Below, piece after piece: positions 37,491 through 55,541 of a DNA stretch of 64,000 nt (position 1 is the first letter of the stretch; every line of letters starts with the position of its first letter). The DNA is from Paraburkholderia aromaticivorans (lineage in GTDB: Bacteria > Pseudomonadota > Gammaproteobacteria > Burkholderiales > Burkholderiaceae), in NCBI RefSeq assembly GCF_002278075.1, contig NZ_CP022992.1:248001-312000 (forward strand), given 5' to 3'. Under the pieces are notes generated by a model. It saw nothing but the letters and a program-made list of their open reading frames with translations. It had not been told where the DNA came from and searched no databases. The translations under genes and the position numbers were made by a program.

Positions 37491-37610
37491 AACAGCTTCC
37501 CAATAAGAAGCTGTTGTGACATACTGAAGCTCTCTCAGGTTCTAGCACGGCCCTCGAAATGGCTAGAACACTTTTGAAGCGTCGCCCTGGAAAGTGCGAC
37601 GCTTTTTTTT
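37491..37610 (+). ncRNA. Three-hairpin region ending in a terminator; possible small RNA
   Basis: Three perfect stems in a row: AACAGCTTC/GAAGCTGTT (37491-37515), GTTCTAGC/GCTAGAAC (37539-37569) and AGCGTCGC/GCGACGCT (37578-37603) followed by eight T to 37610. The last is a good terminator for rightward transcription. The first, read leftward, is followed by a run of T and could terminate umuC transcripts. The compact structure may be an independent small RNA or just a bidirectional terminator plus an extra hairpin. Confidence 0.5.
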
Positions 37611-50300: not shown

Positions 50301-51213
50301 GAGGCCAGTTCAAAAAGGCTGCTCCGTACGCCTGAAGATGTTCCAGCAGACGAGGGCGCAGCCGAATTTCAAGAATGCTTCGTGAATGTCAGCTCGACGA
50401 TCGAAGCGTATGCGAAGACGACGGAAGTTGTGGAGCCACGAGTGAGTCCGTTCAACGACCCAACGGAATTTGCCCAGACCACTGCCATGTTCAGTGCGGC
50501 GCCTGGCGATCACCGGTTTGATGCCGCGTTCGCGCAATCGTTGACGATGCGGATCGGAATCGTAACCACGATCGGCATAGATGACTTTGGGTCTCTGAAG
50601 TGGTCGGCCGCGCGTGCCGCGGATCGGGGGAATCGCGTCGACGAGCGGCAGCAACTGGGTGACGTCGTTGCGGTTCGCGCCGGTCAGGATGGCGCTGATG
50701 GGAACGCCATTGGCGTCTACGAGGATGTGGTGCTTGGAACCGGGTCGCGAGCGATCCGTGGGGTTCGGGCCAGTTTTTCGCCCGCCCCAACGGCTCGTAC
50801 CGACGAGGAATCGACGGCAGCGTATGAAAGATCGATCTGCCCGGCCTCGCGCAACTTGTCGAGCAGCAGTTCGTGTAGTCGATCCCATACTCCTGCTTTG
50901 CGCCAGTCGTTCAGTCGTCGCCAGCAGGTCGCGCCGGAGCCAAAGCCCAATACGGTCGGCAGGTAGTTCCATCGCAGACCGGTTTTCAACACGAACAGAA
51001 TGCCATTCAACGCCGCCCGATCCGATACGCGCGGGCGACCAGGATGCTCTTTGCGCCGGGGCTTGGGCGGCGGCAGTAACGGTTCGATCAGTGTCCACAA
51101 TTCGTCATCAATGATCGGCGCTTCCATCCCTTGGGTTCCATTGTTCAGGCATCCAAGGTTAACAGCTTGCCGAGAAAGTAAACAGCCCCCTCAGGGGTTT
51201 TTGAACTGGCCTC
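50301..51213 (-). mobile_element. IS5-family (IS427-group) insertion sequence
   Basis: 913 bp with terminal inverted repeats GAGGCCAGTTCAAAAA (50301-50316) and its complement (51198-51213), flanked by the 3-bp duplication TTA (50298-50300 and 51214-51216). A TNA duplication and two overlapping transposase frames are typical of the IS427 group. Orientation leftward. Inserted in the DUF551 gene. Confidence 0.9.
50310..51127 (-). CDS. IS427-group transposase made by -1 frameshifting
   Basis: Frame A (51127 to 50717) begins MEAPIIDDELWTLIEPLLPPPK and carries AAVDSSSVRA with the first catalytic aspartate. At the A-run of GAAAAAC (complement of 50774-50778) a -1 shift moves to frame B, which reads TGPNPTDRSRPGSKHHILVDANG, then VIYADRGYDSD (second aspartate) and FRWVVERTHSWL (glutamate), ending at 50310. 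The fused product is about 270 residues. Both frames are open as needed, so the element appears functional. Confidence 0.85.
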
Positions 51214-53416: not shown

Positions 53417-53839
53417 ATGCGCACGCGCGTCTCTCATACACACCCGATCGGAAACGAGTCTTTGGCCACCGCACGTGTTGATGGCCTTACCGCGGCACGG
53501 CGGGCACGCCCGATCCAACATGTGCGGCCAGCAGCCACGCCTCGGCCGAACTGTCACGATGCCGTCGACGCGTGGGTGGCCACTCATACGGGCACTCAGG
53601 CCGTGCGCGGTTGGCTCGCACTCGAACTGGACGGCGCGTCGGTGCGCTTCGTTGCGCATTCAATCGTACGCAATGTTGACGGCATACTGTTGGACCCGAC
53701 CTTCTCGGAGGGCGAGCCGGCTCTCCCGTTTGTGCCACATCCGCGTGCGACCGGAGGATTCTTCTCGCTGTTATGTCGGCCCGGAGCGCCCTATGAGCTG
53801 ATGGTGTTCACCCGTAACGATGATGTCTTGCCTGACTAG
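53417..53839 (+). CDS. Hypothetical protein, 140 residues
   Basis: ATG 53417. N-terminal 50 residues are polar and basic and may be unstructured (HTHPIGNESLATARVDGLTAARRARPIQHVRP). The rest is folded-looking: CHDAVDAWVATHTGTQAVRGWLALELDGASVRFVAHSIVRNVDGILLDPTFSEGEPALPFVPHPRATGGFFSLLCRPGAPYELMVFTRND. HSIVRNVDG.LLDPTF resembles papain-like or transglutaminase-like small proteins of phages but no active site is certain. Moderate confidence that it is a gene. Confidence 0.55.
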   Translation: MRTRVSHTHPIGNESLATARVDGLTAARRARPIQHVRPAATPRPNCHDAVDAWVATHTGTQAVRGWLALELDGASVRFVAHSIVRNVDGILLDPTFSEGEPALPFVPHPRATGGFFSLLCRPGAPYELMVFTRNDDVLPD

Positions 53840-53844
53840 ATTCC

Positions 53845-53879
53845 TTGACTGAATTGATCTTGTAGTAGTCGAGTCAAGT
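53845..53879 (-). terminator. Hairpin just after the 498-residue leftward gene
   Basis: CTTGACT (about 53845-53851) pairs with AGTCAAG (about 53873-53879). Read leftward it follows the stop at 53883 by a few bases. There is no strong T-run, so it may be a weak terminator or an element end. Confidence 0.35.
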
Positions 53880-53882
53880 TTT

Positions 53883-55379
53883 CTACGCGGCGATTTTGAC
53901 CTGGTCGCACCAGGTGTTGATGGCCTGCTCGGCGGTGCGGAAGCTGTGCTGCAAAGACGCTGGCGAGGCCGCGGGCGCCTGAGGGCTGACCAATGCAAGG
54001 CCTGGGCGCAAGATGCGCGAGTACACGCGTGTGTAGAAGAGTGCCGTTTGCAGCCCCAGGTTGGTGAGCCGATAGCGGTGGGTCTTGGACACGCGCTCGA
54101 TCAGGCCATGCAAGCGCAGGCGTCGCAGCTCGTAGCTCATGCGCCCCGGGCCGATTTCGCCGGGACGCAGGCCCGGCAGCACGGCGTAGGCTTGCCGCAG
54201 GTCCTGATTGGTAAAGCCGCGTGCGACGAACACGAACATCACCAGCGCATGCAGGAGCGCTTGGACGTTCGGCTCGGCAAAGCGCAGCGCCGGTGCACGC
54301 TGCCCGTCAACATGACACGGACGCTGCAGGTCCTGGAACGCATCCTCGCCCAATGCACAGTCGTGGCTGATCTGCTCGATCTCGAGCATGCGCCGGTTGG
54401 CGGCAAAGCCGATGCGGCGCAACTCGGGCAAGTTGTGCAGCAGCCGTCCCACGCCGAAGTCGCGGGTGTCGTTGATGGTGGTTTCGGTACGCAGCGCCTG
54501 GCCCTCCTTGTGGTACTGCTTGATGCGTGAACGCTTGTAGTCGACATGCAGCGAAGGGGTGACCCCTTCGGTAATCACCCGGGTCCGAAAGCGCCCCGGG
54601 GTGCGCCGGTTGACGCGGCGATCGAAGATCAGTTGCACCTGGCCCGGGCGTCCGATGTCCAGGTTCTCGCGGATGACCTGCTCGAAGAAGATGCGGCCCG
54701 TCACGGGTCGATCGAGCACCTGGGTCAGGGCGAACTCGGCCTGCAGGATCGACAGCGCGTAGCGGTAGCCGGCGGCTCGATCGTGGCGCTCGAACGGATG
54801 CGGTAGCCGCGCGAGCCACTTGCGGAGCAGCCGATCAATCTTGCGCTCATCTCCGTTGATGCACAGCCTGGCGTTGTAGGGAAAGTAGGAACAGAACTTC
54901 AGGAAGAACGGGCCGAAGTCGTCGTCCACGCAGTAGAAGTAGTAGTGGTTCACCATCGCGCTGCCCTCGACCACCCACGGATAGCTCATGCCGGTGCGTG
55001 CACAACGGCGTCGCTCGGTGCGCACCACGCGCGCCTTCTCCTGGGCGCGGCCCACATACAGAATTCCTTCGTCGGCGTCGAAGCGCTGCAGATACTGCTG
55101 GGTGAGGTCGTCCTTGCGCTGGTGCTTGCTGAAGCTCACCAGATCCACACTCTGCCGGGCCACAAACCTCTCGATGTTGGCCACGAAGGCCTCGGTCTTG
55201 GGCGCCACCGTCGCGGTCGAGGCGAAGCGCTGACCGAGATGACCGCGCAGGTACCACACCACGCCACCTATGCGCTGCAACTGCGGCACATAAACGTTCA
55301 GGTACATCCGGTGGATGCACTCGCTCTCGAACACGACGTGATCGCGCAGAACTTCGCACACACTCTGTGATAACGTCAT
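53883..55379 (-). CDS. Large protein of unknown function with cloverleaf-like 5' region, possibly a mobile-element protein
   Basis: 498 residues, ATG 55379. Begins MTLSQSVCEVLRDHVVFESECIHRMYLNVYVPQLQRIGGVVWYLRGHLGQRFAS. Further blocks: VDLVSFSKHQRKDDLTQQYLQRF, HYYFYCVDDDFGPFFLKFCSYFPYNARLCINGDE (acidic cluster, then a conserved-looking aromatic run), GRPGQVQLIFDRRVNRRTPGRFRTRV, and a C-terminal winged-helix-like stretch LRQAYAVLPGLRPGEIGPGRMSYELRRLRLHGLIERVSKTHRYRLTNLG. From memory, similar proteins occur in many copies across bacteria without an assigned function, which suggests a transposon-like spread. I see no DDE, tyrosine or serine recombinase signature. Its ribosome site lies in the closing stem of a cloverleaf-like structure. 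Confidence 0.6.
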   Translation of the reverse strand: MTLSQSVCEVLRDHVVFESECIHRMYLNVYVPQLQRIGGVVWYLRGHLGQRFASTATVAPKTEAFVANIERFVARQSVDLVSFSKHQRKDDLTQQYLQRFDADEGILYVGRAQEKARVVRTERRRCARTGMSYPWVVEGSAMVNHYYFYCVDDDFGPFFLKFCSYFPYNARLCINGDERKIDRLLRKWLARLPHPFERHDRAAGYRYALSILQAEFALTQVLDRPVTGRIFFEQVIRENLDIGRPGQVQLIFDRRVNRRTPGRFRTRVITEGVTPSLHVDYKRSRIKQYHKEGQALRTETTINDTRDFGVGRLLHNLPELRRIGFAANRRMLEIEQISHDCALGEDAFQDLQRPCHVDGQRAPALRFAEPNVQALLHALVMFVFVARGFTNQDLRQAYAVLPGLRPGEIGPGRMSYELRRLRLHGLIERVSKTHRYRLTNLGLQTALFYTRVYSRILRPGLALVSPQAPAASPASLQHSFRTAEQAINTWCDQVKIAA

Positions 55380-55382
55380 GTC

Positions 55383-55472
55383 TGGCTCCGGTCGTCCACG
55401 GGGTCTTCGGACCCCATTGAGCTTCGAGCTCGTACATCTCTGGGCTTGTCCCAGCCGGCTCGACCGGAGCCA
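55383..55472 (-). ncRNA. Cloverleaf-like structured region before the 498-residue gene
   Basis: On the minus strand: a perfect 12-bp outer stem TGGCTCCGGTCG (complement of 55461-55472) with CGACCGGAGCCA (complement of 55383-55394). It encloses three small hairpins: CTGGG-ACAAG-CCCAG, GAGCT-CGA-AGCTC and GGGGTC-CGAA-GACCCC (complement of 55400-55415). The 3' outer arm contains the GGAG ribosome site and ends 3 bases before ATG 55379. Possible roles are a translational switch, an RNA bound by the encoded protein, or an element terminus. Confidence 0.55.
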
Positions 55473-55541
55473 CCTTACACCACCAGCGCTCCGCAGTCAC
55501 CCGTACCACTCGTCGGTCTGAGGCGGAGCCTCGTTAGGACT

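Follow-up and report, generated by a model that had tools for sequence, protein, structure and literature searches.

The window analysed here, 64,000 nucleotides of Paraburkholderia aromaticivorans contig NZ_CP022992.1 (positions 248,001 to 312,000), holds on its minus strand a putative transposase gene (53883-55379), which is directly preceded by a cloverleaf-shaped leader (55383-55472) and lies within an insertion-sequence-like element (53837-55534). The leader is 90 nt long. An outer stem of 12 bp, P1 (55472-55461/55394-55383), encloses three hairpins of 5, 5 and 6 bp, namely P2 (55454-55450/55444-55440), P3 (55431-55427/55423-55419) and P4 (55415-55410/55405-55400). Its 3′ edge lies three bases upstream of the ATG at 55379, from which the gene runs for 498 codons, and 6 nt upstream of this ATG the 3′ arm of P1 contains a Shine-Dalgarno sequence, GGAG (55386-55389). 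An earlier note on this DNA had described just such an outline, and its stems, coordinates and distance to the ATG are borne out, except that in the minimum-free-energy (MFE) drawing the third hairpin, with its CGAA loop, has 8 bp rather than 6. The MFE is -52.2 kcal/mol, against a mean of -31.0 (sd 3.3) for 200 dinucleotide shuffles, none of which was as stable (z -6.35). The folded RNA is real.

Candidate identities for the leader were also considered. ARAGORN found neither a tRNA nor a tmRNA in the window, and the sole Rfam match there, to ncS54 (Burkholderia sRNA 54, RF02871; 60.2 bits at 37528-37610, plus strand), lies away from the cloverleaf. The reading frame runs open through the leader in the window copy; across loci, leader lengths of 85-106 nt are out of step with codons, and a coding leader was rejected.

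Homologous leaders were aligned by hand, because MAFFT alignments (A4, A5) misplace P2 and P3 across phyla. The 17 loci aligned come from Burkholderiales, Acidobacteria, Chloroflexi, Capsulimonadaceae, Planctomycetes, Rhodococcus, Mycolicibacterium and others, many being metagenome bins with soft labels. Left out were L003, whose leader is identical; L018, L021 and L106, which resemble L012 and are bulged; L011, on a cut contig; and L004, L019, L042, L117 and L118, which show no clear cloverleaf. Standard pairs occupy 351 of the 379 pair cells of this alignment, which by its nature favours structure (P2 was aligned by its loop), compared with 70.1% (sd 2.0, maximum 76.7) in 2000 shuffles of the 3′ arms, a test that preserves arms and not relatedness. 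Both sides have changed at 9 of the 10 scored P2 and P3 positions. That is, the stems are kept with compensating changes.

To the notion that a GC-rich sequence folds in this manner by chance we give almost no weight. The GC content is indeed high, and a lenient fold test that 26 of 48 loci pass is passed by 138 of 536 shuffles as well; being too permissive, it gave way to a strict automatic one, in which the outer stem has at least 11 pairs, there are exactly three arms, and the structure ends at most 8 nt from the start codon. Passes then numbered 21 of 48 upstream regions against 25 of 576 shuffles, the 48 including near relatives, truncated copies and sibling families, though not L114, and start codons being uncertain for some loci in both tests. 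This result, the z score, the paired cells and the covariation all disfavour a chance fold. Six of the 17 hand-aligned loci (L009, L012, L014, L016, L027, L104) fail the strict test, owing to other start codons or a differing MFE structure, while L164, L165, L102 and L105 pass it from outside the hand alignment. No cloverleaf was found by this test in L107-L111, L166-L169 or the siblings L073, L077 and L080. Thus, the expectation that stems stand upstream of the homologues holds in part of the family: the cloverleaf is a subfamily feature that diverged members lack, and mobility in general can therefore do without it.

The left ends of three loci deserve mention here. In L012 (near 681), L009 (near 253) and L021 (near 2811), a long palindrome, with arms that by eye measure about 22-28 bp, forms the left end just ahead of the cloverleaf; in such Acidobacterial copies the left-end sequence is present twice, inverted.

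The element itself extends well beyond the feature first noted. It is 1698 bp long in the window copy, with its first base, A, at 55534 and its last three, CTA, at 53839-53837, and the identity of this copy with L100 and L003 ends exactly at these borders. CTA also flanks the left end (55535-55537) and is taken as target-derived, as is the G after the right end (53836), which would place the cut at CTA^A here and at CTA^G in an empty target. A left-end hairpin, GAGGC-TCC-GCCTC (55520-55532), is followed by AGACCGACGAG (55519-55509), and an inverted repeat, CTTGACT ... AGTCAAG (53844-53878), stops about 7 nt short of the right tip. Homologues share this layout: their left end resembles CTAACGAGGCTCCGCCTCAGACCGACGAG and is followed by the cloverleaf and then the gene, and their right end resembles CTTGACT...AGTCAAGGAATCTAG.

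The boundaries are conserved across genomes. In Caballeronia arationis, 20 loci share the right end, with flanks that differ directly past CTAG, and in Cupriavidus sp. amp6 the same is true of 6 of 7 loci. CTAG stands at all 47 right ends matched by a pattern that required CTA[AG]; the right end of L010, which this pattern does not match, reads CTAA by eye. Of the 33 matches to the left pattern, 3 were due to chance and 2 were the opposing arms of palindromic ends; the remaining 28 read CTAA (21), CTAG (4), CCAG, CTGA and CTAC (1 each). We then compared the C. arationis right flanks with 58 genomes of the C. arationis group, which gave unoccupied relatives for 8 of the 20 sites among the loci fetched. 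Empty sites at 97-100% identity (L005, L045, L057, L058) have CTAG before the flank, and a second empty relative of L058, at 92%, has CTAA; those at 82-89% (L052, L053, L055, L059) have GTAG, CGAG, CCAG and CTGG. Left junctions were found in C. arationis for four of the eight sites, L052 and L055 included, all with CTA directly followed by ACGAGG, and for four sites the left junction, the right junction and a related empty site are all in hand. Among the other C. arationis flanks, 10 had no relative, L050 matched only itself, and L054 proved to be a dispersed repeat, with relatives that fail to align ahead of it. Empty-site searches elsewhere returned only a weak 66-base match in one other genome for the window copy (59 genomes, its own included), only 40-48-base matches in 4 of 59 other genomes for the Cupriavidus flank L037, and none for L114.

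Because the junctions and empty sites show a CTAG target, insertion is read as CTA^G. The same exact ends thus occur at many sites with different flanks, and relatives have the matching empty sites, as in an insertion sequence. We conclude that the cloverleaf-bearing unit is a mobile element, which the earlier note had raised as one possibility. A structured non-coding region adjoining a transposase gene also recalls the guide RNAs that program the target in IS110/IS1111. A guide role for this leader is very improbable, however, because the near-identical empty sites share only CTAG; beyond CTAG the flanks differ among the 20 copies, and diverged members have no cloverleaf. The protein also differs from the DEDD transposase of IS110/IS1111 in that no Pfam family matches it.

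At L115 (Rhodococcus), an IS701-type copy sits exactly at the CTAG right end, and the L103 right flank and L115 left flank are similar to IS701-type sequence, which by eye suggests the same insertion.

The protein was given as 498 residues, which is its size in the window; close homologues, among the matches listed, mostly have about 535. The difference includes 38 residues absent after E178 in the window protein, where 114 bp (38 codons) present in relatives are lacking at approximately 54845-54848; ungapped copies exist elsewhere. Lacking 38 conserved codons, the window copy is probably dead. The protein matches no Pfam or NCBIfam family. There are at least 8000 homologues, and two sets of 120 best matches are unnamed or 'hypothetical' save for two stray automatic names. 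The description of the protein as multi-copy fails for the window's own genome, where it is single-copy, and holds for other genomes. At E 1e-60, 7 of the 297 genomes sampled from an Acidobacterial phylum and 9 of the 400 sampled from Chloroflexi carry relatives; at E 1e-30, the only one of 399 genomes in the window's order is the window's own. These frequencies are low estimates, because draft assemblies easily lose multi-copy repeats. Some copies lie on plasmids, in Caballeronia, Rhodococcus and Mycobacteriaceae, and viral contigs yielded one homologous locus. PADLOC, run on the relatives P0001 and P0121 instead of the window protein, called no defence protein, and PHROGs gave only weak regulator-like matches, none better than E 0.01 and none in more than 2 of the 8 members.

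L080 (1435-2952), L073 (1432-2994) and L117 (4245-5906) encode sibling proteins that are 505-553 aa long. The first two carry KxYxK...RxE, that of L080 together with an ArsR/MarR-type winged helix. The three loci are possibly a second group of such elements.

Structure prediction on relatives gives an N-terminal TBP-fold domain and a C-terminal MarR-like winged helix. In the fold ranking TBPs come first, followed by three Rep_trans rolling-circle nickases (PDB 4cwc, 4cwe, 4cij); Foldseek alone returned nothing convincing from the PDB. The predicted catalytic domain thus has the TBP fold of Rep_trans (PF02486). A catalytic pattern of D, D, K/RxYxK and RxE is invariant in 18 of 18 aligned relatives, after L017 (frame-shifted there) and L169 (short) were dropped. 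In the window protein it corresponds to D23, D152, K287-x-Y289-x-K291 and R297-x-E299, and in P0001 D23, Y327-x-K329 and R335-x-E337 are likewise invariant. For Rep_trans, PMC5714925 lists an N′ Asp, Tyr-x-Lys, RxE, and RxD as motif I. The motif III Tyr-x-Lys and motif IV RxE are present in all 18, and D23, from its position on the first strand, would be the N′ Asp. Motif I is not seen, as the invariant D152 has no R two residues ahead. PF02486 gave no hmmscan match to the family and none in a six-frame search of G000, and hhalign gave 0.1% against two members. The identity of the protein as a transposase like Rep_trans is a prediction, though a supported one.

Formally, the CTA found at both ends makes a 3-bp duplication, and the Foldseek scores are weak; a transposase of other chemistry, such as DDE, whose TBP-like fold is coincidental, would account for both. 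We regard this as quite improbable, given that KxYxK and RxE are invariant and sit on neighbouring predicted strands, and that there are hairpins near both element ends. The left CCA and right CTA of L003 also speak against a duplication, although later mutation could explain them too.

Elements of the IS200/IS605 group have subterminal hairpins and insert after a short fixed sequence with no ordinary target duplication. The present element likewise has subterminal hairpins and inserts 3′ of a short fixed sequence. It differs in its enzyme, since theirs is a small HUH Y1 transposase and ours a 535-aa family with no Pfam transposase match and no invariant HUH pair. The Rep_trans initiators (RepDE, RepSTK1) share the predicted TBP fold, the R/K-x-Y-x-K Tyr, the R-x-E and two further invariant Asp, whereas the element protein has no profile match or motif I and has a fused winged helix; their carriers are plasmid or phage replicons, ours a transposing element. 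Rep-Arvir proteins (DUF7845, PF25227) of archaeal viruses and plasmids, as described in PMC13107129, combine a TBP-fold catalytic domain, a MarR-like winged helix and a hairpin DNA partner. Domain order and hairpins are thus alike, but they belong to archaeal replicons, unlike our bacterial insertion element, and PF25227 did not match the transposase family.

What, then, does the leader do? In each of the 13 leaders tested, GGAG (or GGAGG, GAGG) stands 5-10 nt ahead of the start codon and falls inside or at the 3′ P1 arm. Its computed unpaired probability is at most 0.031 in ten of these and 0.25-0.49 in three (L010, L018, L021). When leaders are cut 70 nt before the start, which removes the 5′ arm, the value is 0.23-0.60 in eight, only 0.07-0.08 in L013 and L033, and lower than before in L010, L018 and L021. 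Because the outer stem buries the ribosome site, throttling of transposase translation would be the likeliest role of the RNA. The anatomy of the translational switch once suggested for this locus therefore fits, and the switching itself is conjecture. Limits of the occlusion type on transposase translation are known in IS10 and IS200, and in IS200 mRNA structure reportedly limits the transposase. By analogy with other elements, occlusion would hold the transposase low and silence read-through transcripts. In ISPpu9 of Pseudomonas putida, a structured 5′ untranslated region buries the transposase ribosome site, as computed for the cloverleaf leader, and a weakened version gives 26x reporter activity (PMC8450116, in part). 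Antisense RNAs act there, and that portion of PMC8450116 describes no cloverleaf or comparable protein.

No promoter was seen. The stretch before P3 resembles a minus-10 box in the leaders of L007, L033 and L114 (TATTAG, TATGAG, TATGAA), and transcription from such a site would produce RNAs that lack the 5′ arm.

Alternatively, the cloverleaf may be a ligand of the transposase, either in RNA form, for autoregulation or cis preference, or as single-stranded DNA beside the left end, for end recognition, the burial of the ribosome site being incidental. The 17 loci show 14 G-U and 11 A-C pairs; with counts so similar, the folding molecule could be RNA or single-stranded DNA. The leader is also better conserved than the coding sequence (90/90 identical to L003 and 87/90 to L100, against 1360/1497 and 1389/1497), the sequence near P3 is alike in L007, L010, L033, L114 and L115, and the MarR-like domain of Rep-Arvir has been proposed to read a hairpin origin (PMC13107129, in part). 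However, L166 has the same left-end type with no cloverleaf by the strict test, and the position of the GGAG-like site in all 13 leaders points to translation. We therefore hold the ligand role to be unlikely.

Our preferred explanation, which we judge probable, is a transposase built of a TBP-fold, Rep_trans-type tyrosine nickase and a winged helix, with a leader that throttles its translation. The winged helix would locate the element. At each hairpin-bearing end, one strand would be cut after CTA by the Tyr (Y327 in P0001 numbering) together with a metal that D23, D152 and E337 hold, and the freed strand would be ligated into another CTA^G site, with no scar except CTA; this single-strand chemistry is our inference. 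With the leader folded as a cloverleaf and the ribosome site shut in its outer stem, little transposase would come from transcripts that begin ahead of the element or within the left end. Weighing against this explanation are its lack of universality, as diverged members have no cloverleaf; the weak Foldseek scores; and the three conserved arms, which exceed what occlusion needs, so that the transposase may also bind the leader.

Whether these elements form a new class of bacterial transposon, in which a Rep_trans/TBP-fold tyrosine nickase moves single strands into CTA^G and reads a cloverleaf to set its own level, is in our estimation evenly balanced. If so, their transposases would be distinct from HUH, DDE, DEDD, serine and tyrosine recombinases, a second, unrelated enzyme fold would perform single-strand-type transposition in bacteria, and plasmid initiators, archaeal Rep-Arvir enzymes and insertion sequences would become linked. 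For a nameless family of at least 8000 members, the analysis itself supplies a role, exact ends, a target site and an active site open to testing, and the leader is a cross-phylum structured RNA (or DNA), the window copy of which matches no Rfam family. In the literature we found no description of a Rep_trans-type transposase or of such a leader, in a search whose coverage of subscription papers and preprints was thin and which does not establish absence from print.

Elsewhere in the window, at 50310-51127 on the minus strand, two overlapping frames (262 and 136 aa) presumably represent one IS5-type transposase in two frames.
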